From: Paludibacter sp.
GTDB taxonomy: Bacteria > Bacteroidota > Bacteroidia > Bacteroidales > Paludibacteraceae
Direction: 5' to 3'
NCBI GenBank assembly: GCA_028692715.1
Contig: JAQUWU010000009.1
Location: forward strand, 59,900-123,899
DNA length: 64,000 nucleotides
A program made the translations under genes and the position numbers. Shown piece after piece: positions 29,793-52,556 of this stretch (positions are counted from its first letter, which is position 1; each line of letters opens with the position of its first letter). The notes beneath the pieces were generated by a model. It worked only from the letters and a program-made list of their open reading frames with translations, had not been told where the DNA came from and did no database searches.

Positions 29793-31040
29793 ATGATTCC
29801 CTTCAACAAACCCTACCTCACAGGTAAAGAAACAATTTATATCGAACAAGCCGTTAAATCGGGTAAAATATCAGGCAACGGTATGTTTACGCAGAAGTGC
29901 CAACAATTTTTTGAAGATAAATACGGTTTTAAAAAATGTTTGTTGACCACTTCATGCACTGATGCGTTGGAAATGGCAGCTATATTGTGTAATATTCAGC
30001 CAGGTGATGAAGTGATCATCCCTAGTTATACTTTTGTGTCCTCAGCCTTGGCTTTTGTGCGTCAAGGAGCAAAAATTGTATTTGCTGACAGTCAGGAAAA
30101 TCATCCCAATATCGATGCCGATAAGATAGAAGCTCTAATCACAGAACGTACCAAAGTGATAGTCCCCGTACATTATGCCGGTATGGCTTGCGATATGGAT
30201 AAAATTATGCAATTGGCCGAAAAATATAATTTGTTGGTGGTAGAAGATGCGGCACAAGCGGTGGATTCGTATTATCTGCCTGCCCCCCAACCCCCTAAAG
30301 GGGGAGTCTCAGCGCACTTAATAAACGGAAATGCAACTGAAGTACCCTCCAAATATTCCCCCTTTAGGGGGTTAGGGGGCAGGGCTGCTTTAGGGGGTCG
30401 GGGGGCAGCTCTCGGAAGCATCGGTCATTTTTCTGCCTTTTCCTTTCACGAAACAAAAAACATTATTTCTGGTGAAGGTGGTATGTTGGCAATCAACGAC
30501 GAGCGTTTTATTCAACGGGCTGAGATTATATGGGAAAAGGGAACCAATCGTGCCAGCTTTTTTAGGGGAGAAGTAAATAAATATGGTTGGGTTGATACTG
30601 GAAGTTCTTTTTTGCCTTCCGAAATTATTGCAGCTTTTCTTTGGGCTCAGATAGAAAACTTAGATGATATCCAAAGCAAACGCAAACAAATTTGGAATAG
30701 ATATTACGAAGGATTAAAGCCTTTAGCAGATAAAGGATATCTCAAATTGCCTGAGATGCCCATATTTGCAACCAATAATGCGCATATGTTCTACTTGGTT
30801 TGCAATTCGCTGGAGGATAGAACTAAACTAATTAACCATTTAAAGGCCAATGGCATATTGGCTGTTTTTCATTATTTGAGTTTGCATATCAGTGAGTATT
30901 ATGCTCCCAAATACGATGGCCGTGAATTAGCTAACTGTGATATGTTTGCTGATTGTTTGGTACGGTTGCCAATGTTTTATGAGTTGGAGGTAGAGAGTGT
31001 AAACAAAATAGTAATGGTAATAAAAAATATATTTCAATGA
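29793..31040 (+). CDS. DegT/DnrJ/EryC1 sugar aminotransferase (WecE-like) with a palindrome-derived insert
   Basis: 415 residues, about 40 longer than WecE-type enzymes. PLP-site blocks: SCTDALEMAA, YTFVSSALAFV, VEDAAQAVDSYY and FSAFSFHETKNIISGEGG, with the Schiff-base lysine K222. It likely makes dTDP-4-amino-4,6-dideoxygalactose or a similar 4-amino sugar. Between VDSYY and ALGSIGHFSAF, residues about 162-206 are encoded by C/G-rich palindromes and read APQPPKGGV...SPFRGLGG...GGRG. Normal family members have only a few residues (a 'KGRPLGTIG'-like turn) there. The frame stays open and all catalytic blocks are intact, so it may still be active. It overlaps the next gene by ATGA. Confidence 0.9.
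   Translation: MIPFNKPYLTGKETIYIEQAVKSGKISGNGMFTQKCQQFFEDKYGFKKCLLTTSCTDALEMAAILCNIQPGDEVIIPSYTFVSSALAFVRQGAKIVFADSQENHPNIDADKIEALITERTKVIVPVHYAGMACDMDKIMQLAEKYNLLVVEDAAQAVDSYYLPAPQPPKGGVSAHLINGNATEVPSKYSPFRGLGGRAALGGRGAALGSIGHFSAFSFHETKNIISGEGGMLAINDERFIQRAEIIWEKGTNRASFFRGEVNKYGWVDTGSSFLPSEIIAAFLWAQIENLDDIQSKRKQIWNRYYEGLKPLADKGYLKLPEMPIFATNNAHMFYLVCNSLEDRTKLINHLKANGILAVFHYLSLHISEYYAPKYDGRELANCDMFADCLVRLPMFYELEVESVNKIVMVIKNIFQ
30276..30408. repeat. C/G palindromic insert inside the aminotransferase gene
   Basis: Left arm 30276-30305 (CTGCCCCCCAACCCCCTAAA and on) and right arm 30357-30382 (TCCCCCTTTAGGGGGTTAGG and on) are near-perfect reverse complements. A third partial arm, GCTTTAGGGGGTCGGGGGGC, follows at 30385-30404. 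The 50 bases between the arms are unlike the arms. Confidence 0.9.
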
Positions 31041-32740
31041 AAAAAGCACATTTAATATATTTGTTGTCGATTGTTGTTTTGATAATTTACGCCTTTAAAC
31101 TTACACAGTTTAATAAAAATCTTGATTCTATATATGATGAAGGATTTTTATTTTTAAAAATTCAAGCTGCTTCACAAGGGATTATAGAAGGTGGAAGTCA
31201 ATGGGCTATGTTTGTTGATACTTTTTTTGGAAGTAGGATAAGTGGAAATATATTATATTTACGAATTGCTGGATATTTTGTTCACTTAACAAGCATACTT
31301 TTGTTTGCGTTTATATCGCTTCGCTATTTAAAAAGAAAATGTGATTTTGCATTGGAAATTAATGAAAAAATAGAGTATTTGTTATTTGTAATGTTGTTTG
31401 GAACTCTCGCATTAGGTGGAATTGTAATTTCTTATAATGCCTTACAAGAGTTTTTTTTAATTAGCATGTTATTGAGTTTTTTAGATTCGACAATCAGTAA
31501 AAATAAAAAAAATATTTTTGCAGAATATTATCTTATTGGTTTCTTATCCTTTTTTGCGATTATGACAATCTTACCTTCGGGTATTTTAGTTTTATGTTGC
31601 TTGATATTACTTATGTTGCAATATTATATTAAAGACATCAAAATGATAATATCAAATTTGATATTTGTTTTCATTGGTTTTTTGACTGCAACTGTACTTT
31701 TTCATTTTTTTATAGCTGATATTGGAGATGTTTTTGTTGCCATGAAGCATACTGCAAATAATATAACTAAACTAAATAGAGGTTACGATCCGCTTTCTTT
31801 TCTTCTTAAAATTATTTTTTACTTTAGAGATTACTATATTCATATTAGCGTTTTGATTGGCCTATCAGTTATTAGCTATTTTGTAATGCACTACACTAAA
31901 AAAATAGTTGGTTTTATGTTTTTTCTTCTATCTTTAGTGTTAGTCGTTTTATATTTACGAAAACCTTTAATTGAGACTACTACTTTATTGTCTTTCTCTT
32001 TTATTGTGCTGTTTTTTCTATTAAATGTAAAAAACAAATCATTTAAAATAAAAGAGATATTTAATTTCGAAACATTACTGCTTATATTTTTATTTTTCTA
32101 TCCTTTAATTTCTTCTATTGGAACAAATGTGTCATTAGCTGGTAAAATGAGCAAATTTATTTTACCATGGAGTCTGCTATTATTTATAATGATGAATAAA
32201 TTAAAAATCAAAGATGAATATCATGAATATACTTCATATATCAAAATATATTTAATTGTCATTATTGCTTTTTTACCGTTTAGAAGTATCTATTCATCTG
32301 TTTCTCATTTGAAAACAGAGAAATTAGTTTTTGATAAACAAAAACCAATTTCTAATATGATAATAACATCAAAACAAAAGGAGTATTTTGATAAGGTGTA
32401 CGATATAATGTCAGTATATGATTATAAGAAAGGAGATGTTATCTTCTCTACACAGCTCGATCATATGACAATTGTTGCATTTGATGCTATTCCAGCTGGT
32501 CTATTTTTTCAACCTATGGACTATAATGCAGATGGAAATAAACTGTCACTTCCAAAACCTGATTATTTGCTTTTGACGGAATTTGATTTGAAACTAATCT
32601 CTGAAAATTTAAAAATGCAAAACTGGGGGTTCCCAGAGCAATTTGATACGTTTTTTGTGGGTACACCAGAAGTTATCAAAACATCTTATTCAACAACTCG
32701 AATATTATATTGTAGAAGGTCAAAACTTACCAAGCCATGA
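31037..32740 (+). CDS. Multi-pass membrane protein, probable GT-C glycosyltransferase
   Basis: 567 residues, about eleven to twelve transmembrane helices and a C-terminal periplasmic-type soluble region of about 130 residues. The first loop has FNKNLDSIYDEGFLFLKIQAASQG, an acidic pair in the place of the GT-C catalytic loop. It is very AT-rich. It overlaps the aminotransferase and the following GT2 remnant by ATGA, so it was part of a tightly coupled operon. It may use the lipid-linked sugar made by the ArnC-like enzyme; an O-antigen polymerase is an alternative. Confidence 0.6.
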   Translation: MKKAHLIYLLSIVVLIIYAFKLTQFNKNLDSIYDEGFLFLKIQAASQGIIEGGSQWAMFVDTFFGSRISGNILYLRIAGYFVHLTSILLFAFISLRYLKRKCDFALEINEKIEYLLFVMLFGTLALGGIVISYNALQEFFLISMLLSFLDSTISKNKKNIFAEYYLIGFLSFFAIMTILPSGILVLCCLILLMLQYYIKDIKMIISNLIFVFIGFLTATVLFHFFIADIGDVFVAMKHTANNITKLNRGYDPLSFLLKIIFYFRDYYIHISVLIGLSVISYFVMHYTKKIVGFMFFLLSLVLVVLYLRKPLIETTTLLSFSFIVLFFLLNVKNKSFKIKEIFNFETLLLIFLFFYPLISSIGTNVSLAGKMSKFILPWSLLLFIMMNKLKIKDEYHEYTSYIKIYLIVIIAFLPFRSIYSSVSHLKTEKLVFDKQKPISNMIITSKQKEYFDKVYDIMSVYDYKKGDVIFSTQLDHMTIVAFDAIPAGLFFQPMDYNADGNKLSLPKPDYLLLTEFDLKLISENLKMQNWGFPEQFDTFFVGTPEVIKTSYSTTRILYCRRSKLTKP

Positions 32741-33060
32741 AAACACTCACCATCATCACCATAAACTACAACAACGCTGCGGGTTTGCAAAAAACCGTGG
32801 ATAGCGTGCTGAGTCAAACTTCACAGGATTTTGAGTATATCGTGGTGGATGGGGATGCCCCCCAACCCCCTAAAGGGGGAGTTTTGAGAGACCTTGAAGT
32901 AATTGAGGGATTTGTTAAAGAAAAAGCTAAAACAGTAAATGGTTTTACTGCTTGTAGCTGGCTCTCCCCCTTTGGGGGAGTTGGAGGAGGCTTTTATTCC
33001 GGGCATTTACAATGCTATGAACAAAGGCATACGGATGGCTAAAGGCGAACATGTGGTTTA
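32737..33060 (+). pseudogene. Truncated and frameshifted family 2 glycosyltransferase
   Basis: The first 250 bp match the intact gene at 34583 at roughly 90% by eye, including the same palindromic inserts. Near 33000 the intact gene has GAACCTGACACCGG where this copy has only GGG, a loss that shifts the frame. The original frame stops at 33042. The restored frame reads GIYNAMNKGIRMAKGEHVV and meets TAG at 33060. Everything after that is missing and the toxin-antitoxin promoter follows. It is therefore a dead fragment of a GT2 duplicate. Confidence 0.85.
32854..32991. repeat. C/G palindromic inserts in the GT2 remnant
   Basis: Left arm GCCCCCCAACCCCCTAAAGG near 32856 and right arm CTCCCCCTTTGGGGGAGTTG near 32964, reverse-complementary apart from the TTT/TTTA difference. 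They flank about 80 bp of ordinary GT2-like coding sequence. Confidence 0.85.
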
Positions 33061-33109
33061 GAAAAATGGCATATACACTAAATATTTTTTTATCTTAAGA
33101 TGAATTCAC

Positions 33110-33117
33110 TATCTTTG
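33110..33117 (+). promoter_or_regulatory. Candidate -7 promoter element for the HipB/HipA module
   Basis: TATCTTTG matches TAnnTTTG, 34 nt before the antitoxin ATG. It suggests that the module is transcribed independently of the polysaccharide operon. Confidence 0.5.
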
Positions 33118-33150
33118 CAAATAGTAAAATAATACCACTAAATAGCTAAA

Positions 33151-33474
33151 ATGACTATTAATAGCAATATAATACAACTTAACGCACCATCATCGTCGGA
33201 TGTATGTTTGTCCGTAGCAATACGTGTTAAGCATCGACGGTTAGAACTGAATCTGACACAGCTGGGTTTGGCTATGCGGGCTGATGTTAATATTGAAACA
33301 TATCGCAAGTTCGAACGTACTGGCGAAATTGCGTTTTTGAATCTGGCAAAAATTGCTTTCGCTCTGGATGCTTTAAATGATTTTGATCAGCTGTTTTCTC
33401 AAAAAAAATATACTAGTATCGAAGATGTTATTCAAAGCAAAACAATAACCCGAAAAAGAGGAAAAAGGATATGA
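33151..33474 (+). CDS. HipB-like XRE-family antitoxin
   Basis: 107 residues. A helix-turn-helix of the XRE/Cro type lies at about 24-80 (VAIRVKHRRLELNLTQLGLAMRADVNIETYRKFERTGEI), and the C-terminal tail is very basic (TRKRGKRI). It overlaps the HipA gene as ATGA, the usual antitoxin-first order. In known HipBA systems the antitoxin binds an operator in its own promoter and neutralises the kinase. The pair sits between a broken and an intact copy of the same glycosyltransferase gene. Confidence 0.85.
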   Translation: MTINSNIIQLNAPSSSDVCLSVAIRVKHRRLELNLTQLGLAMRADVNIETYRKFERTGEIAFLNLAKIAFALDALNDFDQLFSQKKYTSIEDVIQSKTITRKRGKRI

Positions 33475-34559
33475 TGTCTGTAAATGCAGTTGAAGTTTAT
33501 TGGCACAATCAGCTTGTTGGGAAAATAGCACTTAGCAAGGAGCGATTGTGCGCCTTTGAATATAGTTCCCATTTTTTACTAAATGGGTTTTCAATTTCGC
33601 CATTTGAACTACCCCTACGGTCGGGTGTATTTATTGCAAAACCACATCCGTTTAACGGTATTTTTGGCGTTTTCGACGATTGCTTACCCGATGGTTGGGG
33701 TATGATAATTCTCGAACGGTATTTGCAAAAACAAGGAATTAAACCACGATCAATTAATATTTTAGATAAACTATCACTCGTAGGTTCATCAGGGCGAGGA
33801 GCATTGGAATTCCGACCCGATCAAAGTGTTTTGAGTTCAAATAACCATTCTGATTTTGATAAATTAGCAATGGAGGCACAGCAAATTTTAAGTTCAAATG
33901 CCTATACAGGTAGCGGAGTTGAGGAACTTTACCATCAAGGAGGATCGCCTGGTGGTGCCCGTCCAAAAGTTTTTATAACTGCCAACCAAAAGGAATGGTT
34001 AGTTAAGTTCCGTGCAACATACGACCCTCAGGATATTGGAAAAACAGAGTATCAATATTCGATACTCGCCAAAAAATGTGGTATTTATATGCCTGAAACG
34101 CGTCTTTTTGAAGGTAAATACTTTGGCGTAGAACGTTTCGACCGGATAGCATCCGAGAAAATTCATATAGTAAGTGTTGCAGGTCTCTTAAATGCCGATT
34201 ACCGAACACCTTGCATCGACTATTTTGCAATTTTTCAATTATGTAGCATTCTTTCACATAACACTCAGGAAATGTGGAAATTATACCGATTGATGGTTTT
34301 CAATTTCTTGATTGGCAACAAAGATGACCATACTAAAAACTTTGCATTTATGTATTACAACGAAGAATGGAAACTTACACCAGCATTCGATATATTGCCA
34401 AGTGAAGGGATAAATGGATATCATACCACAACCATCAACGACAAAATAGAACCAACAAGCAGCGATATTATTGCAGTAGCAGTAAAAGCCGGATTAGATA
34501 AATCGCAGGCAGAAAATATATTTGAATATATAAACGCAATTATCGTGAAATATCAATAA
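33471..34559 (+). CDS. HipA-family serine/threonine kinase toxin
   Basis: 362 residues, shorter than E. coli HipA (440) but with both parts. An N-terminal subdomain (1-115) has VYWHNQLVGKIAL and FDDCLPDGWG. The kinase core has the glycine-rich GGSPGGARPK loop (157-166), a lysine in EWLVKF (K179), the catalytic segment NKDDHTKN with D286, and the metal-binding AFD with D307. Known HipA proteins phosphorylate tRNA synthetases and cause growth arrest. All key residues seem present, so it is likely active. ATGATG offers two adjacent starts; the first overlaps the antitoxin stop. Target is not predictable. Confidence 0.87.
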   Translation: MMSVNAVEVYWHNQLVGKIALSKERLCAFEYSSHFLLNGFSISPFELPLRSGVFIAKPHPFNGIFGVFDDCLPDGWGMIILERYLQKQGIKPRSINILDKLSLVGSSGRGALEFRPDQSVLSSNNHSDFDKLAMEAQQILSSNAYTGSGVEELYHQGGSPGGARPKVFITANQKEWLVKFRATYDPQDIGKTEYQYSILAKKCGIYMPETRLFEGKYFGVERFDRIASEKIHIVSVAGLLNADYRTPCIDYFAIFQLCSILSHNTQEMWKLYRLMVFNFLIGNKDDHTKNFAFMYYNEEWKLTPAFDILPSEGINGYHTTTINDKIEPTSSDIIAVAVKAGLDKSQAENIFEYINAIIVKYQ

Positions 34560-34582
34560 AAACAAAAATTTAAAAACACACA

Positions 34583-35515
34583 ATGCTCATCACCATTATC
34601 ACCATAAACTACAACAACGCTGCGGGTTTACAAAAAACCGTGGAAAGCGTGCTGAGTCAAAGTTCACGTGATTTTGAATATATCGTGGTGGATGGGGATG
34701 CCCCCCAACCCCCTAAAGGGGGAGTTTTGAGAGACCTTGAAGTAATTGATGGATTTATTAAAGAAAAAGCTAAAACAGTAAATGGTTTTACAGCTTGTAA
34801 CTGGCACTCCCCTTTTGGGGGAGTTGGAGGGGGCTTTTATTCCGAACCTGACACCGGTATTTACAATGCCATGAACAAAGGTATTCGCATGGCAAAAGGG
34901 GAGTTTATTCATTTTCTCAATTCGGGCGATTGGTTGGTGGATGAGCATGTAGTTGAAAATATGTTATTTGCGCTCAGTTCTCCCCCTTTGGGGGAGCTAG
35001 AGGGGGTGGATATATTTGTTGGTAACAAAATCATGGTGCGCCCCGATGGAAAAGTGCGTTATGGAAAGAATGACAAAAGGCCAGTCACTGCCTTGACCTT
35101 TTATCGTGGTACTATCGAACATACTTCGGCTTATATCCGTCGTTCATTATTTGATGTGGTGGGCATGTACGATGAAAATCTGCGCATTGTGTCCGATTGG
35201 AAATGGTATTTCGATGCCGTTTTAAACCACCATGCTCAAGTGGCTTTTACCGATATTTATGTGTCTTATTTTGATAATTCGGGTATTAGTAGTACCAATT
35301 TGGAGCTTGACAAAGCCGAGCGTCGCCAAATATTGGAGCAGATGTTAGCCCCTGTTGTGTTGGCCGACTATGATCGCCATCATTTGGCCATTGATCAATT
35401 TGAACGGCTGCAGCGGTATCCACTAATTTATAAATTCTTTTATTTAATAGAGCGTATCTTGTTTAAGTTCGACAAATGGCATATGAAATATTGGGGATGG
35501 AAGAAAAAAGCTTGA
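34583..35515 (+). CDS. Family 2 glycosyltransferase with palindrome-derived inserts
   Basis: 310 residues, GT-A fold with ITIITINYNNAAGLQKTVESV and SEPDTGIYNAMNKGIRMAKGEFIHFLNSGDWLV. Three stretches come from C/G palindromes: DAPQPPKGGV right after YIVVDG, SPFGGVGGG before the SEPDTG block, and SPPLGELEGV near residue 135. The first replaces the usual GASTDGS turn, seen intact in the gene at 20049. Loss of that turn could weaken donor binding; the frame is otherwise open to the end. It starts 24 bp after the HipA gene, which separates it from its broken relative at 32737. Confidence 0.83.
   Translation: MLITIITINYNNAAGLQKTVESVLSQSSRDFEYIVVDGDAPQPPKGGVLRDLEVIDGFIKEKAKTVNGFTACNWHSPFGGVGGGFYSEPDTGIYNAMNKGIRMAKGEFIHFLNSGDWLVDEHVVENMLFALSSPPLGELEGVDIFVGNKIMVRPDGKVRYGKNDKRPVTALTFYRGTIEHTSAYIRRSLFDVVGMYDENLRIVSDWKWYFDAVLNHHAQVAFTDIYVSYFDNSGISSTNLELDKAERRQILEQMLAPVVLADYDRHHLAIDQFERLQRYPLIYKFFYLIERILFKFDKWHMKYWGWKKKA
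34697..35012. repeat. Three C/G palindromic inserts inside the GT2 gene
   Basis: ATGCCCCCCAACCCCCTAAA at about 34699, CTCCCCTTTTGGGGGAGTTG at about 34807 and TCTCCCCCTTTGGGGGAGCT at about 34980. The first two are at the same places as in the remnant at 32854-32991. Confidence 0.85.
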
Positions 35516-35580
35516 CACTTGTTTTGATTTCTATGTTCAACGGGTAATAATTAGTGTGCTATTGGCTAAGGAAGTAAATT

Positions 35581-35869
35581 CGTTCTATAGAAAATTGAAC
35601 TCATTCGGATTGAAATAGAAAGCGTTCTATAAAAAACAGAAATCGTTTGGGTCAAAATAGAACTCGTTCTAAAAAAAGTAGAACTCATTCGGGTTGAAAT
35701 AGTAAACGTTCTATAAAAAGCAAAAATCGTTTGAGTCAAAATAGAACTCGTTCTATAAAAAGGGAATTCATTTAGGTAAAAATAGAAAACGATCTATAAA
35801 GAGTAGAATTCATTTGGTTTGAAACCGAAAACGTTCTATAAAAAATCGAACTTATTTGAATGAAAATAG
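35581..35869 (+). repeat. 42-bp tandem array built of 21-bp half units
   Basis: CGTTCT-type anchors occur at 35581, 35623, 35665, 35707, 35749, 35790 and 35832, a spacing of 42 except for one of 41. Between them CGTTTG or CATTCG anchors sit 21 bp away. Units contain A-runs of 4-7. No open frame spans it. Confidence 0.85.
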
Positions 35870-35901
35870 CTTGGGTGCGAGAGCTTATATAAATAAACAA
35901 T

Positions 35902-35933
35902 AAACTCCCATAAGTAAGTACCAATGGGAGTTT
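35902..35933. terminator. Hairpin terminator downstream of the minus-strand gene
   Basis: AAACTCCCAT (35902-35911) pairs with ATGGGAGTTT (35924-35933) around a 12-nt loop. It is placed 23 bp beyond the stop of the minus-strand gene and after the plus-strand GT2 operon. Confidence 0.6.
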
Positions 35934-35955
35934 AGATTAGGAAAGTCAAGTTGTT

Positions 35956-38175: not shown

Positions 38176-38181
38176 TCGAAT

Positions 38182-39147
38182 ATGTTCTCAATAATAATTC
38201 CCTTATATAATAAAGCACCTTATATCGAAAAAGCAATTCGATCGGTGACAGCACAAACTTTTCAGGAGTTTGAGTTGATAGTGATTGATGATGGCTCTAC
38301 AGATATAGAGGCCCCCCAACCCCCTAAAGGGGGAGTAGGTCTGACTTATTCAGATATTGAGCAATTAATAGATGGGAAAGGAAGGCTTATTAAGCAGAAA
38401 AATTCTGGTGTAAGTGTGACTCGCAATAAGGGTGTTAAACTTGCGAAATACGATTATATCGCTTTTTTGGATGCTGATGATTGGTGGGGACCTACTTATT
38501 TGGAGGAAATGAAGGGATTGATAGAAGATTTTCCTGAAGCTGGCATTTATGGCAGTAGTTATTATAAAGTAAAGGATGGAAAAAATATCCCTGCGAACAT
38601 AGGAGTTGAACCGGGTTTTACAAAAGGATTAATTAATTATTGTCAGGTATATGCCAAAACCATGTATATGCCTTTGACATCTATTACAAGTGTAATTAAG
38701 AAAAGTGTTTTCGAATCTGAAAATGGTTTCAAATCAACATTAAAACTGGGAGAAGATTTTGATTTATGGGTACGGGTAGCGATGAAATATCCAGTAGCCT
38801 TTTTGAATAAACCCTTGGCTTATTACAATCAGGATGTGGAATTCGTAAACAGAGCCATAGGTTCCAAATTGTATGAACCTCATGAGCATATGCTTTTTAC
38901 TGATTATGGAGACATGAAAAATAATTCAGATTTCTTACATTTGTTTGAGGTGTTGGCAGTATATGGTTTATTACCTTATTATATTAGTGGAAAAAACAAG
39001 GTGGGAGTAAAAACGATTATTTCTAAAATTCATTGGAAAAAACATAGTTTCAAGTATAAATTGTTTTATACTCTTTTGCCAAAAGTAATTGTGAAATTTT
39101 ACTTCGAATTTTCACATTATATGTATGATTTTAAAAACAGACATTAA
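38182..39147 (+). CDS. Family 2 glycosyltransferase with a palindrome-derived insert
   Basis: 321 residues. FSIIIPLYNKAPYIEKAIRSVTAQTFQEFELIVIDDGSTD is the canonical donor-binding start and FLDADDWWGPTYLEEM contains the DAD metal motif. Directly after DDGSTD, the residues EAPQPPKGGVG are encoded by a C/G palindrome; family members normally continue with NS plus a short helix. The rest (RLIKQKNSGVSVTRNKGV) is undisturbed, so activity is likely kept. It lies 6 bp after the preceding GT-B gene. Sugar specificity is unknown. Confidence 0.87.
   Translation: MFSIIIPLYNKAPYIEKAIRSVTAQTFQEFELIVIDDGSTDIEAPQPPKGGVGLTYSDIEQLIDGKGRLIKQKNSGVSVTRNKGVKLAKYDYIAFLDADDWWGPTYLEEMKGLIEDFPEAGIYGSSYYKVKDGKNIPANIGVEPGFTKGLINYCQVYAKTMYMPLTSITSVIKKSVFESENGFKSTLKLGEDFDLWVRVAMKYPVAFLNKPLAYYNQDVEFVNRAIGSKLYEPHEHMLFTDYGDMKNNSDFLHLFEVLAVYGLLPYYISGKNKVGVKTIISKIHWKKHSFKYKLFYTLLPKVIVKFYFEFSHYMYDFKNRH
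38308..38337. repeat. C/G palindromic insert inside the GT2 gene
   Basis: GCCCCCCAACCCCCTAAAGG and on to GGGGAG, the same orientation and reading frame (PQPPKGG) as in the genes at 29793, 32737 and 34583. Confidence 0.85.
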
Positions 39148-40361: not shown

Positions 40362-40392
40362 TTTTTACTGCTCATACTAACCATTATTAACC

Positions 40393-41825: not shown

Positions 41826-41897
41826 AGTAGTTTCAATAGGAATGGGTTTTAACCCATTCTTTAAAAAGAAGAAAATATATATTGGCTTTAGCCAAAA
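41826..41897 (+). repeat. REP-like double hairpin (RAYT-associated family)
   Basis: GTTTCAATAGGAATGGG then GGGTTTTAACCC (first hairpin) and ATTGGCTTTAGCCAA (second). The same pair occurs before and after the transposase at 43393. The inverted repeat lies just ahead of the next gene. Confidence 0.75.
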
Positions 41898-41920
41898 TGG
41901 TTCTCATTAATTATATGCAC

Positions 41921-42865
41921 ATGAAAGTTCTAATTGTTTGCAGTGGAAATTCCGGTCGTATTGTTCCTTTTATAGTGGAGCAGGTTGTTGCATTGCAATC
42001 AAAGGGAGTAGAGACGGATTATTTTCTGGTGCAACAAAAAGGAATATTGGGCTATTTGAAAGAAAAAAAAAAACTATTATCAAAAATTAAAAGTTTTCAA
42101 CCCGACCTTATTCATGCCCATTATGGCTTGTCGGGTTTACTAGCTAACCTACAACGTCAGATTCCGGTTGTAACAACTTATCATGGCAGTGATATTAATA
42201 ATCACAAAGTGTTTCTATTTTCGAAGTTGTGCATGATGTTGTCGGCATATAATATATTTGTATCGGGAAAGAATAGAAAAAAGGCTAACCTCACCCCTGG
42301 CCCCTCTCCTAAAGGAGAGGGGAACTGTGATTTAATTCCTTGTGGCGTTGACATTGAGCCTTTTAAACCAATTGATAAACTGGAAGCAAGAATTCAACTG
42401 AAATTGGATAAAGATAAAAAGTATGTTTTGTTTGCCGGTTCGTTTACAAATGAGGTAAAAAATCCAGAATTGGCCAAACAATCTGTAAATCTGATTGAAA
42501 ATGTTGAATTGCTGGAATTAAAAGGATATTCACGTGAGCAGGTTGCTTTGTTGATGAATGCTGTTGATTGTGTTTTAATGACTAGCTTTACTGAAGGTTC
42601 ACCACAGTTTATAAAGGAAGCTATGGCCTGTAATTGTCCTGTTGTTTCAGTTCCTGTAGGAGATGTGCCGGATGTTATTGAGAACATAGAAGGATGTTTT
42701 ATTTCAACATACGAACCTACAGATGTAGCCGTGAGATTAAAACTGGCATTAGAATTTGGAAAACGTACTGAAGGAAGAAACCGAATTGTTGAATCGGGGC
42801 TAGATTCAGAAACGGTGGCAAAAAAAATAATAGGAGTGTATGAGAAGGTGATTAATGCTAAATGA
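41921..42865 (+). CDS. Family 4 glycosyltransferase with a palindrome-derived insert
   Basis: 314 residues from ATG 41921. An in-frame TTG at 41882 lies within the REP-like hairpin and is rejected. GT-B blocks: KVLIVCSGNSGRIVPFIVEQ, LIHAHYGLSGLLA, VVTTYHGSD and TSFTEGSPQFIKEAMACNCPVVSVPVGDVPDVI. Residues NLTPGPSPKGEGNC, between FVSGKNRKKA and LIPCGVDIEPF, come from a C/G palindrome; relatives have only a few residues there. A run of eleven A residues at 42063-42073 (KEKKKLL) is a possible slippage site. The last residues VINAK and stop are encoded by a 14-bp tandem repeat. Confidence 0.85.
   Translation: MKVLIVCSGNSGRIVPFIVEQVVALQSKGVETDYFLVQQKGILGYLKEKKKLLSKIKSFQPDLIHAHYGLSGLLANLQRQIPVVTTYHGSDINNHKVFLFSKLCMMLSAYNIFVSGKNRKKANLTPGPSPKGEGNCDLIPCGVDIEPFKPIDKLEARIQLKLDKDKKYVLFAGSFTNEVKNPELAKQSVNLIENVELLELKGYSREQVALLMNAVDCVLMTSFTEGSPQFIKEAMACNCPVVSVPVGDVPDVIENIEGCFISTYEPTDVAVRLKLALEFGKRTEGRNRIVESGLDSETVAKKIIGVYEKVINAK
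42287..42322. repeat. Palindromic insert inside the GT4 gene
   Basis: CCCCTCTCCTAAAGGAGAGGGG at 42301 onward (arms CCCCTCTCCT and AGGAGAGGGG), preceded by CTAACCTCACCCCTGG. A sequence variant of the same hairpin family. Confidence 0.85.
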
Positions 42866-42981: not shown

Positions 42982-43020
42982 TCTGGTTCAATAGGATTGG
43001 ATTTTGATGAAAATAGACTT

Positions 43021-43215
43021 GGTTCAATAGGATTGGGTTTTAGCCCATTCCTAATATAATAATTTGGCTAAAGCCAATAAGATATATCAATTATTTCCCC
43101 CTCCTGTTAAAACAGGAGGCAATTGAAAAGATGAGGCAATTGAGAAGAAGAATGCTAAAACAGGAGGCAATTGAAAAGAAAGAAAGACAATGCTAAAGTA
43201 GGAGGCAATTGAAAA
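43021..43215 (+). repeat. Left 195-bp direct repeat of the RAYT unit
   Basis: Starts GGTTCAATAGGATTGGG, ends AGGAGGCAATTGAAAA. Contains two REP-like hairpins and a CCTCCTGTTAAAACAGGAGG hairpin. Confidence 0.85.
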
Positions 43216-43392: not shown

Positions 43393-43830
43393 ATGCCATT
43401 TGTAAATGTTTACATACATTTTGTTTGGAGCACAAAAAACAGGGAGCCCTTTCTTGAGACAAAAGAAATTAGAGACAAAGTATGGTTTCATATAAAGGAA
43501 AATGCCAAGAAAAAAGGTATTTTTGTTGATTTCGTAAATGGATATTCGCAACATTGTCATTGCTTGGTATCGTTGGGTGTAGATCAGACAATATCCAACA
43601 TCATGCAATTGATCAAAGGTGAATCTTCATATTGGATAAATAAGGAAGGATTGACAAAAGAAAAATTTGAATGGCAGGATGAATATTATGGTGTTTCTGT
43701 TTCCGAATCATTGATTGAAAGGGTTCGAAACTACATTAAAAATCAGGAGGTTCATCATGATATACATTCTTATGGTGTTGAAATTGATAATTTAATTATC
43801 AAATATGGATTCCACAAATTCAAAGATTAA
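43393..43830 (+). CDS. REP-associated tyrosine transposase (IS200/IS605-type Y1)
   Basis: 145 residues from ATG 43393; an in-frame TTG at 43339 would begin in the flanking hairpin and is rejected. The HUH motif is HCHCLV (H54, H56), and the probable nucleophile is Y114 in VRNYIKNQEVHH. FEWQDEYYGVSVSES is the usual block before it. The length and the flanking palindromes place it with RAYT-type Y1 transposases, which act on single-stranded REP hairpins. All catalytic residues are visible, so it may be active. It is flanked by direct repeats and sits between two polysaccharide genes without breaking either. Confidence 0.87.
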   Translation: MPFVNVYIHFVWSTKNREPFLETKEIRDKVWFHIKENAKKKGIFVDFVNGYSQHCHCLVSLGVDQTISNIMQLIKGESSYWINKEGLTKEKFEWQDEYYGVSVSESLIERVRNYIKNQEVHHDIHSYGVEIDNLIIKYGFHKFKD

Positions 43831-43875
43831 TAGTTCAATTGGGAGTATTCAAATAAACCTGTTTCAATAGGATTA

Positions 43876-44070
43876 GGTTCAATAGGATTGGGTTTTAGCC
43901 CATTCCTAATATAATAATTTGGCTAAAGCCAATAAGATATATCAATTATTTCCCCCTCCTGTTAAAACAGGAGGCAATTGAAAAGATGAGGCAATTGAGA
44001 AGAAGAATGCTAAAACAGGAGGCAATTGAAAAGAAAGAAAGACAATGCTAAAGTAGGAGGCAATTGAAAA
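43876..44070 (+). repeat. Right 195-bp direct repeat of the RAYT unit
   Basis: Same order and nearly the same sequence as 43021-43215, at an offset of 855 bp. Confidence 0.85.
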
Positions 44071-44110
44071 GAAGAAATGCTAAAACGGGAAACAATATAA
44101 AAACAATGCA

Positions 44111-44653
44111 ATGAAAACTATCTACCTTTTTCTTTATTATGGTTTTGCCCAATATTTGCCGAAGTCAACTTTACCTTTTGGAAAATGCTCCATGAGGTTT
44201 CGTCGTTTTCTTTGTGAACGATTATTTTCATCCGCTGGGAATAAACTTGTTGTGGAGAATAAAGCATATTTTGGCAACGGAAAGGACTTTCGGGTGGGTA
44301 ATGAGGCAGCGTTAGGTGCCAATTTTAAATCCACTAACCGCATCGTTACTGTAGGCAATTACTTGATGATGGCTGAGGATGTATTGTTTTTGGGTGGAAA
44401 TCATAATTTTGAAAATATTGAAATACCTATGGGTCATCAGGGCGGTGGAGGAAAAACACCATTGCAAATAGAGGATGATGTGTGGATAGGAGCGAGGGCG
44501 ATGATATTGCCTGGTTGTAAGCATATTGGCAAAGGAGTGATTATCGGAGCTGGATCAGTAGTAACTAAAGATATTCCCGATTATGCCATTGTGGGGGGAA
44601 ATCCGGCAAGAGTAATTAAATACAGGACCCCCTCTCCTAAAGGGGAGTTATAA
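44111..44653 (+). CDS. Hexapeptide-repeat acetyltransferase with a palindrome-derived C-terminus
   Basis: 180 residues. Left-handed beta-helix blocks: [42 protein letters not shown] with the catalytic-type His, and [53 protein letters not shown]. It would acetylate a sugar or sugar nucleotide of the locus. The last residues TPSPKGEL and the position of the stop come from a CCCCTCTCCTAAAGGGGAG palindrome, so the natural C-terminus has been replaced or extended. It follows the RAYT unit by 40 bp. Confidence 0.85.
44626..44650. repeat. Palindromic insert at the end of the acetyltransferase gene
   Basis: CCCCCTCTCCTAAAGGGGAG directly before the TAA; same family as the insert at 42287-42322. Confidence 0.8.
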
Positions 44654-44702
44654 GTAAAGTGTTTTGAGTAAAGAGTTAAGAGATTAAGAAAAAAATGAAG
44701 TA

Positions 44703-45797: not shown

Positions 45798-45850
45798 TGG
45801 CTAGTTGGTAATTGATAGTGACGAGTTTTGAGTTCTGAGTGGGGAGTTAA

Positions 45851-46320
45851 GAGTATTGAGTTACGAGTTTTGAGTGAAGAGTAGTAACAAACTTTGTGAG
45901 ACTTTGTGAAAGAACTTTGCTAAACTTAGTGGAATAGTTTTTAATAGTTATTACACAAAAAAAAACATAGGAGACACGAAAGACACTAAGAATAAAGAGT
46001 TGAGAGTTACGAGTATTGAGTTACGAGTTTTGAGTGAAGAGTAGTAACAAACTTTGTGAGACTTTGTGAAAGAACTTTGCTGAACTTAGTGGAATAGTTT
46101 TTAATAGTTATTACACAAAAAAAAACATAGGAGACACGAAAGACACTAAAAATAAAGAGTTGAGAGTTACGAGTTTTGAGTTACGAGTTTTGAGTGAAGA
46201 GTAGTAAAAAACTTTGTGAGACTTTGTGAAAGAACTTTGCTGAACTTAGTGGAATAGTTTTTAATAGTTATTACACAAAAAAAAACATAGGAGACACGAA
46301 AGACACTAAAAAATCTGTAG
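45851..46320 (+). repeat. 160-bp tandem repeat, about three copies
   Basis: The landmark ACTTTGTGAAAGAACTTTGC recurs at 45901, 46061 and 46221, spacing exactly 160. Each unit contains GAGTTACGAGTTTTGAGTGA, TAATAGTTATTACAC and ACATAGGAGACACGAAAGAC. The copies differ by a few bases only. Confidence 0.92.
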
Positions 46321-46476
46321 CTTTGTGCAAGAAGAAGAAAACCCTTAAAAATTTTCAAACGCATTTGAAAAGATGGTGAACTGCATATTGAATCAGCAAA
46401 ACGCTCAAAGGTCTTGTAGACGCTTAACTCATAACTCAAAACTCATAACTATCTTACTATAAACCATCAACTTCCC

Positions 46477-47511: not shown

Positions 47512-47710
47512 AGAGTAAAGAGTTCTGAGTTCTGAGTTCTGAGTGAAGAGTGTTGAGTAAAAATATTCTTTACTTCCTACTAAAAACTAACTTTTTACTA
47601 ATAACAAACTTAAAACTCAAAACTCAAAACTCCTAATTCAAAACTAATTTCGAACTCATAACTAACTCATTACTCGAAACTTGTTTCCAACTCAAAACTA
47701 ACAACTACTA
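47512..47710 (+). repeat. Low-complexity GAGTTCTGAGT / CAAAACTC repeats between the FemAB-like genes
   Basis: Tandem GAGTTCTGAGTTCTGAG units directly after the stop are followed by reverse-type AACTCAAAACTCAAAACTC units, so the two halves could pair into a long imperfect hairpin. Confidence 0.75.
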
Positions 47711-48703: not shown

Positions 48704-48961
48704 GTAAATGGAACAAATTAATGTACCATTTAGAAACATTAATAGAACGCTGATTTTCGCTGATTTATCGGAAAATGAAGGATAAAACAAAACGGATTTT
48801 TCTTGCCTTCGGCAAGATAATTAAGACACAACTATCTGTAAATCATTCCGATTTATCGGAATTCAAATCCGTTTTTTCAAATCCACTCTATCAGTGAAAA
48901 TCAGCGTTCTATTCTTAAATATTTTCATGCAAAATACGACATTATTTGTTTTCAATTACTT
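48702..48961 (+). repeat. Long-hairpin element, long form with a nested inverted repeat
   Basis: The outer arms match 15815-15934. In place of the small CTGCCTGC palindrome there are about 165 bases that form their own inverted repeat, from CGCTGATTTTCGCTGATTTATCGG to AGTGAAAATCAGCG, containing a smaller hairpin CTTGCCTTCGGCAAG. Confidence 0.85.
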
Positions 48962-49145
48962 AAATGATTATCCGTAATTCATGCAGAGGAATATTTAAGT
49001 TTTTCAAAAAAATATCGTCAATTTAATAAGGACTATAGATCTGATATATTTGGAGAATAATGTAGAAAAATAATGATTATCTGCAAAAGTTCCTATAAAT
49101 ATTAAACATAATTATTTTGTATAATAAAATATAGAATTCATTTTC

Positions 49146-49217
49146 AACCACGAATTACACGAATTTTCACTAAAAATGCATATTTTTAATTTGTGTAAAT
49201 TTGTGTAATTCGTGGTT
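49146..49217. repeat. Hairpin of the AACCACGAATTACAC type
   Basis: AACCACGAATTACAC with partner GTGTAATTCGTGGTT, plus inner AATTTTCAC / GTGTAAATTT pairing. Arms about 27 nt. Repeats of this sequence are widespread in Bacteroidota and other phyla. Confidence 0.75.
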
Positions 49218-49502
49218 ATATTTTTTTTATTTATAGTAATCATTTTTTTTGAATCAAAAAACAATATTAATCCTTGTCTCAAATTTAAATTAGGTCAAAT
49301 TGCGGTTAATCATTAAATTAAATAGTTGGTAGTCCGGATAAAACGGGATGTCGCAAGCTCCATTGGTAGTTGACAGTTGGTAGTTGACAGTTAGAAGTTG
49401 GTGATTGTGATTCGTAATTAGTAGATAGTAATTGACAGTTAGGAATTTAGAATTGAAATTAAAAATTCGATAATTCAACTTTCGAATATCTATATTTATT
49501 TT

Positions 49503-49585
49503 TGTGTAAATTTGCGCTATTTGCGTAATTTCCGCCTGTCTGCCATCAGGTAGATTCAGAAATTACATTTCGGAATACACTCAAT
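49503..49585 (+). repeat. Interspersed repeat, copy 2 (longer copy at 2276-2388)
   Basis: AAATTTGCGCTATTTGCG, GCCTGTCTGCCATCAGGTAG and TTTCGGAATACACTC in order, without the 27-base insert of the other copy. The rest of 48962-49760 holds degenerate GTAGTTGACAGTTGGTAG and CAATTTTCAACTCTCAAC tracts and no gene. Confidence 0.6.
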
Positions 49586-49760
49586 GAAGAAATTACTAGT
49601 TCTTAAAAATATTTGTATAATAATTCTGAAAAATTTGGTGTGAGAGCTGTTGAGTGAAGAGTCCTAATTGAAGAGTATGAATTTTCAACTTTCAATTTTC
49701 AATTTTTAATTTTCAACTCTCAACTAACTCTCAACTCGAAACTAAAAATAACTATAAACT

Positions 49761-50885
49761 ATGTCCAAACTTATTCTCGTAGCAGGTGCTCGTCCGAACT
49801 TTATGAAAATAGGACCGTTGATGCATGCATTAAAAAACCATCCCACAATACAAGCTATTTTAGTACATACCGGTCAGCATTACGATGTTAAAATGTCAGG
49901 TCAGTTTTTTGATGAACTGAATATCCCTGCTCCGGATATAAATCTCGAAGTTGGATCTGCTAGTCATGCTGTGCAAACAGCCCGTATTATGGAAGGTTTC
50001 GAAAAAGTCTGTTTGGATGAAAAGCCTGATTATGTGCTTGTAGTTGGCGATGTAAACTCAACAGCTGCTTGTACGCTGGTGGCTTCGAAAATGGGCATAA
50101 AAACCATTCATTACGAAGCCGGATTGCGCAGTAACGATCGGACTATGCCTGAAGAAATTAACCGACTGGTGACGGATGCCATAAGCGATATTTTTATTAC
50201 TACCAGTGTAGATGCCGATGAAAACCTCATAAAAGAAAATATCCCTAAAGAGAAAATTTTTATGTTAGGAAATTTGATGATTGATTCGTTGGTGGAACAA
50301 TTACCAAAAGCACAATCGACGCAACTGAACTTTACTTTACTGAATAAAGAAAAACAAATTCGTTTTGGTGAAGACTTTATTGCGAAAAAGTATGGTGTGT
50401 TAACTTTCCATCGTCCGGGAAATGTTGATGAAAAAGAAAGTCTTGAGAACCTTGTGAAATTATGGGGCGAAATATCCAATAAAATTCCACTGGTTTTCCC
50501 TGTTCACCCTCGAACGTATAAAAATATAGAACATTTCGGATTACAAAAGTTGATTGATCGTTTTCCACATCTTTATTTTATTGAACCCTTGGGTTACCTT
50601 CAATTTATTCATTTAGTGAGTAAGTCAGCATTTGCATTGACTGATTCGGGGGGCATCCAAGAGGAAACCACTTACTTGAATATTCCTTGTCTCACTGTGC
50701 GTCCAAATACCGAAAGACCGATAACAGTGTGGGAAGGAAGTAATAAGTTGATAAAAACAAATGAAATAGTTTCAGAAGTAAATTTGATTGTAGAGGGCAA
50801 AGGTAAAACCGGAAAAACACCTCAATTCTGGGATGGAAAAACGGCGGTGAGGATAGTGGAATTAATTTCAGTGATTAGTGATTAA
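49761..50885 (+). CDS. wecB: Non-hydrolysing UDP-N-acetylglucosamine 2-epimerase
   Basis: 374 residues, the normal length. Motifs: GARPNFMKIGPLMHAL, LVHTGQHYDVKMSGQFF, VVGDVNST, HYEAGLRSNDRTMPEEINR, TFHRPGNVD and ALTDSGGIQEETTYLNIPCLTVRPNTERP. The D, E, E and H of the E. coli active site are all recognisable. It makes UDP-ManNAc for the glycan in the cytoplasm. The last residues SVISD and stop are encoded by the start of a 14-bp TTAGTGATTAACGA array, the same peptide ending as LpxB at 15476. Confidence 0.95.
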   Translation: MSKLILVAGARPNFMKIGPLMHALKNHPTIQAILVHTGQHYDVKMSGQFFDELNIPAPDINLEVGSASHAVQTARIMEGFEKVCLDEKPDYVLVVGDVNSTAACTLVASKMGIKTIHYEAGLRSNDRTMPEEINRLVTDAISDIFITTSVDADENLIKENIPKEKIFMLGNLMIDSLVEQLPKAQSTQLNFTLLNKEKQIRFGEDFIAKKYGVLTFHRPGNVDEKESLENLVKLWGEISNKIPLVFPVHPRTYKNIEHFGLQKLIDRFPHLYFIEPLGYLQFIHLVSKSAFALTDSGGIQEETTYLNIPCLTVRPNTERPITVWEGSNKLIKTNEIVSEVNLIVEGKGKTGKTPQFWDGKTAVRIVELISVISD

Positions 50886-51004
50886 CGATTAGTGATTAAC
50901 GATTAGTGATTAACGATTAGTGATTAACGATTAGTGATTAACGATTAATGATTAACGATTAGTGATAAAAGATTAGTGGTTAATGATTAACGATAAGTGA
51001 TTAG
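50868..51004 (+). repeat. 14-bp tandem repeat at the end of wecB
   Basis: GATTAGTGATTAAC units, about nine copies with small changes. The first supplies the wecB stop codon. Confidence 0.9.
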
Positions 51005-51049
51005 TTTTGAGTGAAGAGTTATGAGTAAAAAGTTCAGAATTGACAATTG

Positions 51050-51125
51050 AGGGACGTAGTCCTGATATCTTGGTAGAAAAAGTAACCAACACCCAACGGA
51101 GGCGCGTAGCGCTGATTTCTATATT
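51050..51125 (+). repeat. Double-hairpin repeat, copy 3
   Basis: GGACGTAGTCC then TGATATCTTGGTAG, and GGCGCGTAGCGCT then TGATTTCTATATT. A degenerate half-copy, GGAATGTAGTACTTATATCT, lies at about 51193. Confidence 0.75.
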
Positions 51126-51241
51126 AATGATTATTGATAAAAGATTAGTTGTTAGTGATTAACGATTAGTCGGTAGTATTTAATTGATTTAATGGAATGT
51201 AGTACTTATATCTTTGTAGGGATTAACGATTTGTATGAATT

Positions 51242-51628
51242 ATGAAAAAATCAATATTAGCAGATAAGAGTTTTGATTTTGCAGTCCGTATTGTGAAAGT
51301 TTACCGGTATTTATGTATTGAAAAAAATGAATATGTTTTATCAAAACAGCTGGAAAGAAGCGGTACAGCTATCGGTGCTTTAATAAGTGAGGGTGTTTTT
51401 GCCGAAAGTAAAGCGGATTTTGTACATAAATATGGTATTGCCCAAAAAGAATGTAATGAAACAATTTATTGGCTCAGATTATTAAATGCTACGGATTTTA
51501 TCAATCAAAAAGAATTTGAGAGTCTTTCAGATGATGCAACAGAATTAATAAAAATGATTACTGCAAGTATATTGACTGCTAAAAGATCAATTAACAGCAA
51601 AAGAAAACCACCTGAGAATAATGACTGA
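51242..51628 (+). CDS. Four-helix-bundle protein (23S rRNA intervening-sequence protein family)
   Basis: 128 residues, the normal size. SFDFAVRIVKVYRYL, LSKQLERSGTAIGALISEGVFAESKADFVHKYGIAQKECNETIYWLRLLNAT is the family signature, with the conserved RSGTAI-NI/L-E pattern. The family was first seen inside rRNA intervening sequences, but free-standing copies are common in Bacteroidota, often near polysaccharide or sugar genes. No rRNA is present here. The function is unknown. It is isolated by tandem repeats on both sides. Confidence 0.88.
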   Translation: MKKSILADKSFDFAVRIVKVYRYLCIEKNEYVLSKQLERSGTAIGALISEGVFAESKADFVHKYGIAQKECNETIYWLRLLNATDFINQKEFESLSDDATELIKMITASILTAKRSINSKRKPPENND

Positions 51629-51639
51629 GTATTTAACTA

Positions 51640-51728
51640 CTATCCACTAATCACTAATCACTAACCACTAATCACTAACCACTAATCACTAACCACTAAT
51701 CACTAATCACTAATCACTAATCACTATC
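51640..51728 (+). repeat. Tandem CACTAATCACTAAC repeats before the deacetylase-like gene
   Basis: Units of ACTAATCACTAACC/ACTAATC, the reverse complement of the TTAGTGATTAG tracts found elsewhere in the window. Confidence 0.88.
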
Positions 51729-51731
51729 AAG

Positions 51732-52556
51732 ATGGATTTCACCCTACATACCTACTGTAAACTATTAAAGGCAATAAAAGAGGCTGGCTATTCTTTTGTA
51801 ACCTTTGAAGAGTGGTGCGATGGGAAAGCTGTCGGGAAATTTGTGATATTGCGGCATGATGTTGATTTAAAACCAAATAATTCGTTGAGAATTGCTCAAT
51901 TAGAAGCTGAATTTGGTATAAAAACATCCTATTATTTTAGGGCAAATTCGAATTCAAATCAAGAAGAAATTATTCAGACAATTGTAGGATTAGGACATGA
52001 AATTGGTTATCATTACAATGAACTTTCAACATTTAATGGTAATACTGAAAAATCAATAAATCATTTTGAAACGCAATTAGAATATCTTCGTCAGTTTTAT
52101 CCCGTTCGAACAATTTGTATGCATGGAAGCCCTACCTCGAAATACGACAATCGTGATTTATGGAAAAAATATAATTACCGGGATTACGGGATTATTGGCG
52201 AACCATATCTTGATTTTCTTATTTCCCACACCTCACTCCTAACCACTCTTCAGGTGGAGAGGATGGCTAGGGTAGGGGATACTGTGCAGTATTTTACGGA
52301 TACTGCCCGTATGTGGGATGGCGATAAATTTAATATCAGAGATAAAACATTGAACAATTATACGCTTGCTAAATCAAATAAAATTCATACTACTTTTGAC
52401 CTGATTAACTGGTTTGAAACTCTTGAAACATCAAATTCTATAATGATAACCTCACATCCTCAGCGATGGACAAATAATGGTTTCGAGTGGTTCGTTGAAC
52501 TTGTTTTCCAAAACCTGAAAAATAAAATCAAGCAATTGCTATTGAAACTTCGTTGA
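51732..52556 (+). CDS. Polysaccharide-deacetylase-like protein with an in-frame insert
   Basis: 274 residues. VILRHDVDLKPNN supplies the D-HD metal motif, TSYYFRANSNS and GHEIGYHYNE the second metal block, and RTICMHGSPTSKYDNRDLW the third. This is the NodB-like fold (carbohydrate esterase 4 relatives) often found in polysaccharide loci, where it may deacetylate an amino sugar. Between GEPYLDF and TVQYFTDTARMWDG, about twenty residues (ISHTSLLTTLQVERMARVGD) look foreign: relatives run straight from a 'YLDIDF' strand into 'YLTDTGRRWDG'. These residues are encoded by a hairpin-like stretch at 52218-52281. Confidence 0.77.
   Translation: MDFTLHTYCKLLKAIKEAGYSFVTFEEWCDGKAVGKFVILRHDVDLKPNNSLRIAQLEAEFGIKTSYYFRANSNSNQEEIIQTIVGLGHEIGYHYNELSTFNGNTEKSINHFETQLEYLRQFYPVRTICMHGSPTSKYDNRDLWKKYNYRDYGIIGEPYLDFLISHTSLLTTLQVERMARVGDTVQYFTDTARMWDGDKFNIRDKTLNNYTLAKSNKIHTTFDLINWFETLETSNSIMITSHPQRWTNNGFEWFVELVFQNLKNKIKQLLLKLR
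52218..52281. repeat. Divergent palindromic insert inside the deacetylase-like gene
   Basis: CACCTCACTCCTAACCACTC followed by TTCAGGTGGAGAGGATGGCT and AGGGTAGGGGA. It resembles the C/G hairpin family (CTCxxCTAAC-loop-GGAGAGG-GGGGA) with more changes. Confidence 0.55.

Follow-up and report, generated by a model that had tools for sequence, protein, structure and literature searches.

Dispersed REP-like palindromes read in frame within polysaccharide genes of a Paludibacter-like genome

The 64,000-nucleotide stretch of Paludibacter sp. contig JAQUWU010000009.1 analysed here (the window) includes a polysaccharide locus in which hairpin-forming repeats lie inside genes and are read as peptides. 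This raises the question of whether the peptides belong to the protein families or derive from DNA that entered the coding sequence from elsewhere. The first-pass annotation had placed such hairpins in at least five genes and one gene remnant and had taken them for dispersed elements, and in-frame copies were located in all six. The hairpins are REP/REPIN-like palindromes. They are probably selfish elements of a Paludibacter-like lineage that spread with the help of a Y1 transposase and survive within genes in tolerant loops.

Palindromes within the genes of the locus

The intact ORFs with in-frame copies encode an aminotransferase, two GT2 glycosyltransferases, a GT4 glycosyltransferase and an acyltransferase, and families were assigned to these five host genes using Pfam. 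The DegT-type sugar aminotransferase gene (29793-31040, forward strand; PF01041) includes a 123 bp insert encoding 41 residues (162-202), which holds a complete in-frame REP pair facing outward (REPIN, 30280-30382), composed of a REP at 30280-30307 and an inverted REP at 30355-30382. A partial third copy, a half unit, follows directly 3' of the pair (30389-30408). Residues 1-161 and 203-414 of the protein aligned with residues 21-181 and 182-395 of chain 4piw_A, respectively, bounding the insert exactly, and in the structural model residues 166-186 and 189-202 form a low-confidence loop (pLDDT <50).

The GT2 gene at 34583-35515 (forward strand) carries three separate in-frame elements: a REP (34700-34725, forward strand) read as APQPPKGGV, a palindrome of the CCCC-TTTT-GGGG type (34806-34834) read as SPFGGVGGG, and a third palindrome (34979-35006) read as SPPLGELEG. 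The GT2 remnant (32737-33042, forward strand), whose sequence matches the beginning of this gene at 95% identity across 255 nt, has two elements (32857-32882 and 32963-32990). In the second GT2 gene (38182-39147, forward strand), a single REP 3' of the DDGSTD motif (38311-38336, forward strand) again encodes APQPPKGGV. The GT4 gene (41882-42865, forward strand) contains one CTCTCC-type palindrome (42290-42322, forward strand) read as LTPGPSPKGEG, and a palindrome at the 3' end of the hexapeptide acyltransferase gene 44111-44653 (44627-44653, forward strand) encodes the final eight residues and the stop codon, a C-terminal tail that is missing in three congeners.

As judged by sequence alignment, the aligned homologues that lie beyond the genus lack the in-gene palindromes. 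Sixty-eight other genomes of the order lack the aminotransferase insert, with none of the listed HSPs spanning it, and inserts are absent from 13 aligned homologues of GT2 34583, 18 of GT2 38182 and 17 of the GT4. As first described, two of the six frames of each core (CCCCCTAAAGGGGG and CTCTCCTAAAGGAGAG, below) contain a stop codon. All inserts were seen in open frames, also as claimed, a pattern that is partly ascertainment because only intact ORFs were recognised.

Structure and dispersal of the repeat unit

The REP unit is CTGCCCCCYAA-CCCCC-TAAA-GGGGG-ART and occurs singly or as outward-facing pairs, the C-runs pointing outward in all eight of this genome's inverted pairs that are less than 150 bp apart. 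The bases at -3 and +2 could pair by Watson-Crick rules in 73 of the 85 copies outside MITEs. The positions preceding the hairpin are CCCCYAA in the consensus, with no GTAG (or GTGG) foot at the hairpin, and neither end of the hairpin consensus bears a CGTC tag. When folding as single-strand DNA was assessed, many shuffles did as well as the CCCCC units (z -0.7 and -1.5), and the CTCTCC unit was better than its shuffles (z -2.8). In the T form of the REP, the G-run can alternatively pair with the outer C-run.

The core CCCCCTAAAGGGGG is present in 65 exact copies genome-wide, compared with none of the reversed control pattern. Seven exact copies are in the window (1932, 13033, 30291, 30358, 32866, 34709 and 38320), where 26 strand matches with up to three mismatches were found against a mean of 1.35 and a maximum of 7 in 100 shuffles. 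The core CTCTCCTAAAGGAGAG occurs exactly at 42304 and with one mismatch at 44632 (four strand matches against 0.17 expected). At 52231-52281, to which the first-pass annotation had extended the family, there is just a strongly decayed CTCTCC-like sequence, recognised by eye and unscored. Relative G002 has 168 copies of the REP. One of the 65 copies, at a contig edge, was excluded from flank and position analysis, leaving 64 cores; the six G045 copies were excluded there too and were included in the ORF-position check.

Genome-wide, seven of the 65 exact cores are ORF-internal, defined as having over 20 codons of an ORF (minimum length 100 aa) on each side. A 127-aa ORF that covers a MITE copy was left out of this count, as was one of 176 aa overlapping a longer ORF. 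Five of the seven lie within 8 kb of window sequence; two of these arose by duplication and two belong to one REPIN, leaving about three events, and the clustering is not taken as proof of targeting. Copies are not restricted to polysaccharide genes, as had been thought: with functions assigned by eye, further ORF-internal copies were found in a second DegT-like aminotransferase, an alpha-rhamnosidase-like ORF and a 705-aa ORF, and in relative G014 at codon 218 of an aldolase/dehydrogenase-like ORF of 687 aa. The latter is the one clearly internal copy among 51 in G002, G014 and G017, where a few more are within the first 41 codons or at the C-terminus. Of five perfect CTCTCC-type copies, three are well inside long ORFs, one is near an ORF end and one is outside ORFs.

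Spread of the repeats and the loops that hold them

The elements would have spread singly or in pairs of outward-facing REPs, most likely moved by a Y1 (IS200/RAYT-like) transposase acting on a folded single strand. Insertion would have been broad, with gene-internal copies that broke the frame or the fold being lost. The survivors would be those that kept the frame, could be read through in an open frame and fell in surface loops already variable in length, where they may be neutral for the enzymes. Peptides such as APQPPKGGV and SPFRGLGG would be the residue of insertion, and the same loops may have been refilled repeatedly by whichever repeat was active in each species. Against mobility, no strain-level movement was seen, and no empty sites close enough to read a REP target duplication were found.

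Seven Y1-transposase matches were identified in this genome and 49 in nine of the ten congeners searched. With up to 1.5 kb examined per side, some flanks being shortened by contig ends, none of the 56 matches in the 11 genomes had this REP on both sides, and we therefore infer the enzyme. Just two Y1 genes have a REP copy nearby, the C43 gene of this genome (~190 bp upstream) and a truncated gene in G017, which appears to have been disrupted by the element. Palindromes or repeats of other kinds border several of the matches. Edges of the form TAACCCC...GGGGGA are common to the REP and some Y1 flanking hairpins (L094, L104, L109, L121; L037, L114, L116, L117), a hint only, because runs of C and G readily coincide. 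Copy number was not predicted by whether a genome has the nearest RAYT (present in 19 genomes and absent from 17, p 0.08); the close relative G001 has the nearest RAYT gene and one copy, and G021, a genome 89% complete, has 13 copies and no Y1 match.

The loops are reused by unrelated repeats. In a set of 114 aminotransferase proteins, including the query and selected by length and score cuts, 55 of the 57 inserts of at least four residues fell in one loop. In congeners, and also in some Bacteroidota outside the genus, these loops are occupied by different palindromes or by 7-nt tandem repeats; in the phylum survey, three of 122 loci gave no loop and four species were present twice. Among 13 congeners, the aminotransferase loop holds the shared REPIN (G002), another palindrome pair (G341), CTCTCC-type palindromes (G005, G007), clear 7-nt repeats (G015, G016, G023) or probable REP remnants (G017 and, possibly, G004). 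The GT2 38182 site is similarly varied in eight congeners, and the corresponding loop of another aminotransferase encoded in this genome contains a palindrome. All this would also be expected if the loops were true insertion hot spots, where an older repeat, the sequence or single-strandedness attracts repeats that replace each other at a fixed address. We consider that unlikely, given the many ORF-internal copies elsewhere, and given that loop length also varies in species without repeats, e.g. YTGKDGVKKALG, so that tolerance alone can explain the site.

A different origin, as offshoots of a MITE mobilised by its DDE-type rather than a Y1 transposase, is suggested by the longer composite elements, which have terminal inverted repeats with the hairpin forming one end. 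Of the 64 analysed cores, 29 are at a MITE end, the REP half of which is identical to the in-gene REP, and a perfect 8-bp target duplication flanks 16 of the 23 MITE copies with both ends. Two copies are in the window. That at 12903-13066 (reverse strand) retains an intact core and has no perfect duplication, and that at 54193-54381 (forward strand) has the 8-bp duplication AAAAATTG and a hairpin end broken by another palindrome, leaving no intact core. The intergenic hairpins at 13026 and 54201, originally equated with the in-gene ones, are MITE ends, and that at 1914 (1918-1948, forward strand), a variant, has the MITE-type left end CTACTCAG. The terminal end GTAACTACTCAG was found at none of the in-gene copies, neither outward pairs nor the -3/+2 combination is characteristic of MITEs, and only one of the 51 copies sampled in G002, G014 and G017 has a MITE end, indicating that REPs abound largely without the MITE. 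Descent from the MITE is thus quite improbable.

Elements are shared at the same site by single congeners only (G002, G335 and G014), in which the frames are open, as they would be if the inserts were retained for useful peptides that changed enzyme specificity or partners. However, within the REP of three shared copies, 33 of the 34 third codon positions are identical, compared with 490 of 999 outside. This test used only sites with a recognisable REP in the congener and is therefore biased to intact copies, decayed ones being present in G017 and possibly G004 (aminotransferase) and in G025 (GT2 34583). Third positions fixed like the rest point to the DNA and not the peptide. The spacer of the shared REPIN is identical at just 27 of 45 positions, and across congeners the same site encodes quite different peptides or none, making selection for the peptides very unlikely. 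A broader proposal, conceivable though doubtful, is that certain Bacteroidota enzyme loops are standing docking sites where unrelated repeat families (REPs, REPINs and 7-nt tandem repeats) succeed each other, hairpins being kept identical by copying from sister copies, so that repeat turnover and not point mutation would write the loop sequence.

That the peptides are native parts of the families is virtually out of the question despite same-site sharing, as homologues lack the inserts and the same DNA is dispersed outside genes. For the genes and genomes sampled, the homologues rule out a native protein motif, and among the loci examined no distant member of the Bacteroidota carried the peptide at the corresponding position, where different repeats are found. 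APQPPKGGV, SPFRGLGG and LTPGPSPKGEG in such proteins are thus repeat-derived and are not to be taken for motifs of the families.

Relationship to known repeats

We compared the elements with described systems. Like REPs, BIMEs and REPINs associated with RAYT/TnpAREP (PMC2817692, PMC3116915, PMC6006769), they are short dispersed palindromes, form inverted pairs (here about 65-125 bp apart, start to start) and share genomes with Y1 genes flanked by palindromes of their own; unlike them, they have no GT[AG]G foot, and no Y1 gene flanked by this REP was found. PMC6006769 reports in-frame REPs within tnpAREP genes belonging to a subclass abundant in Cyanobacteria and Bacteroidetes, and describes for subclass 2.6, mostly Bacteroidetes, atypical flanking structures without the GT[AG]G consensus.

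The first-pass annotation knew of no counterpart in Bacteroidota surface-glycan genes. Full novelty does not hold, as PMC3733652 already describes in-frame REPs in genes of several species, and tagged REPs at about the same site in related recB genes. As with those GTAG- and CGTC-tagged REPs, in-frame copies are single, paired or several per gene and, as with the CGTC type, have no dedicated transposase; here, in contrast, there is no tag, the family of repeat found in one and the same loop differs between species, and synonymous sites of shared copies are conserved.

The Rickettsia palindromic elements, of which RPE-4 and RPE-6 count among the CGTC REPs, were aptly chosen as a parallel. As in that family, also cited in PMC3733652, dispersed palindromes are inserted in frame in many unrelated genes, the ORFs being intact and the aligned homologues outside the genus lacking the insert; sequence, tag and phylum differ, and the host lineage here is free-living. 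The composite at 13 and 54 kb resembles MITEs in its terminal inverted repeats, 8-bp duplications (present at 54 kb and not at 13 kb) and lack of a gene, and differs in that one of its ends bears a REP hairpin; the REPs inside genes are not themselves MITEs.

A search of open-licence literature for the core sequence and peptides found nothing related. One genus offers natural replicates, a single enzyme loop being filled by different elements, decayed or empty in many species, and DNA-level conservation separates a kept hairpin from a kept peptide; together these allow tests of how genes acquire selfish hairpins and of whether the peptides ever matter. The filling of the same loops by different repeats in related bacteria also shows where such proteins tolerate foreign DNA. 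The 7-nt tandem arrays, frequent in the window, are like intergenic 7-nt direct repeats such as the TAACTGA repeats described in PMC4679880, and unlike those they also occupy loops within coding sequence where other species have palindromes.

Copy number and structure of the palindromes

The window corresponds to bases 59900-123899 of contig 79 in a draft genome of 4.85 Mb and 122 contigs. Among named matches, the two closest to the aminotransferase 29793-31040 come from Paludibacter MAGs, and the organism probably belongs to that genus. The exact core CCCCCTAAAGGGGG is present in 7 copies in the window and 65 in the whole genome, where the reversed control has none, and it was found in 34 of the 60 relatives' genomes searched, with copy numbers within the genus ranging from zero in several congeners to 168. 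Outside the family, only 3 of 24 genomes include it. The palindromes are dispersed, as first proposed. The first-pass annotation had further placed the in-gene copies in polysaccharide genes; as a restriction this is not supported, as others lie inside a 705-aa ORF (contig C12), a second ORF of aminotransferase type (contig C43, two palindromes), an ORF of 937 aa resembling an alpha-rhamnosidase (C54, two palindromes) and, in congener G014, a 687-aa ORF resembling an aldolase/dehydrogenase (functions judged by eye).

Many intergenic copies of CCCCCTAAAGGGGG form one end of a MITE, mostly 163-165 bp long, with ends GTAACTACTCAG and CTGAGTAGTCAC and a perfect 8-bp target duplication in 16 of the 23 copies with both ends within the fetched DNA. 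The copies near 13 and 54 kb, previously equated with the in-gene hairpins, are MITE ends of this kind. A MITE end is present in 29 of the 64 own copies analysed and absent from 35. The REP proper, defined by non-MITE copies, is CTGCCCCC(T/C)AA-CCCCC-TAAA-GGGGG-A(A/G)T. Among the 85 non-MITE copies (35 own and 50 from G002, G014 and G017), 73 have bases at positions -3 and +2 that match as Watson-Crick partners (T-A 46, C-G 25, A-T 2). This match may represent an extra pair beyond a small internal loop, two REP subfamilies, or, by analogy, a trace of the guide/cleavage-site contact that is a feature of IS200/IS605 elements. In all eight inverted pairs less than 150 bp apart in the own genome, the C-runs face outward, the arrangement named REPIN.

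Inserts in the genes of the window

The DegT-type aminotransferase (29793-31040) aligns with chain 4piw_A in two blocks, residues 1-161 and 203-414, that are contiguous on the chain. The 41 residues between them are additional and contain an entire REPIN and part of a third copy. Among the HSPs listed for the 68 other genomes with this protein (E ≤ 1e-60; 295 genomes of the order), none spans the insert, most of which is predicted at pLDDT <50 between two short strands. Comparison with homologues, as the first-pass annotation had advised, likewise found none of the inserts in 13 aligned homologues of GT2 34583-35515 (one being a paralogue from the own genome), 18 of GT2 38182-39147 and 17 of GT4 41882-42865. 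In the acyltransferase (44111-44653), a palindrome supplies the last eight residues and the stop, a tail absent in three congeners. Across 32737-34844, the start of a GT2 gene is partly duplicated (95% identity, 255 nt) together with its two palindromes, the insertion of which thus predates the duplication. A strongly decayed CTCTCC-like palindrome, judged by eye, lies at 52231-52281 within ORF 51732-52556.

The same loops in related genomes

The locus was searched in 48 genomes of the genus and the proteins aligned, and this comparison is the most informative result. Of 13 congeners, G002 has the same REPIN at the aminotransferase loop, its spacer being homologous too. G341 has a different palindrome pair there, G005 and G007 a CTCTCC-type palindrome, and G017 and, uncertainly, G004 probable remnants. 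Clear 7-nt repeats occupy the loop in G015, G016 and G023 (period 7 best, 0/2000 shuffles), and a weak one in G006 (p 0.03); G009 and G012 have neither kind, and G333 has a short loop. The own genome's second aminotransferase also carries a palindrome there. Beyond the genus, among 119 readable loci, palindromes were seen by eye in L286, L345, L303 and L293 and 7-nt repeats in L353, L352, L329, L312 and L321, the remainder being mostly ordinary aminotransferase loops. The L293 palindrome (Prevotellaceae MAG) is perfect and ends in GTAG, resembling a double-foot GTAG REP. Across 114 aligned aminotransferases, 55 inserts measuring 4 residues or longer are at this loop and only two elsewhere, each at a different place; since ordinary loops account for many of the 55, the site is naturally tolerant.

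At the GT2 38182 site, four of eight congeners have palindromes or remnants (G014, G034, G022, G016), three have 7-nt repeats (G007, G333 and, more weakly, G032, p 0.0025) and G336 has neither. At the first GT2 34583 site, G335 has the REP in common, G025 a decayed double insert, and the other six of eight congener proteins no insert. Palindrome-like inserts occur in 3 of 11 congener proteins covering the GT4 site (L220, L221, L238). Intergenic tandem arrays of period 7 or a multiple of 7, frequent across 12799-60353 (e.g. 51645-51726 and 60152-60240), resemble the 7-nt repeats in the congeners' coding loops.

Regarding novelty, PMC3733652 already describes REPs inserted in frame, among them dimers and multiple copies in one gene, and PMC6006769 places them within tnpAREP genes belonging to a subclass that is common in Cyanobacteria and Bacteroidetes. 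No printed description of this untagged Bacteroidota REP was found in the open-licence literature, nor of different repeats occupying the same loops, nor of synonymous-site conservation of in-gene REPs.

Conservation and probable mobilisation

At common sites, REP bases are identical at 53/53 (G002), 24/25 (G335) and 24/25 (G014) positions. The spacer of the REPIN in common with G002 is identical at 27/45. Third codon positions are identical at 33/34 within common REPs versus 490/999 in the rest of the genes, a contrast that is an upper bound, since the sites were chosen for a still-recognisable REP and decayed copies are known (G017, G025). The pattern points to conservation at the level of the DNA rather than of the peptide. 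Candidate causes are homogenisation, same-site reinsertion and selection acting on the hairpin.

The hairpins are best read as REP/REPIN-type elements that are mobilised, we infer, by a single-strand (Y1) transposase, with gene-internal copies probably surviving through a filter of reading frame and loop tolerance. Across the own genome and 10 congeners, not one of the 56 Y1 matches is flanked by the core on both sides. Nor is REP copy number predicted by whether a genome carries the nearest RAYT. CGTC REPs similarly lack a dedicated transposase, according to PMC3733652.

Other repeats were observed in the window. An IS200-like Y1 gene (ORF 43393-43830) lies between direct 200-bp repeats (43016-43215 and 43871-44070, 99% identical). 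A 160-bp unit is present in three tandem copies at 45837-46316 (93-97% identity), and an imperfect 42-bp tandem repeat is intergenic at 35581-35869. A perfect 67-nt inverted repeat (2096-2162 and 17809-17875, 15.6 kb apart) is flanked by a second inverted pair (2162-2226 and 17714-17778), and a 163-nt direct repeat (11808-11970 and 63838-64000, 91% identical) is cut by the window end.
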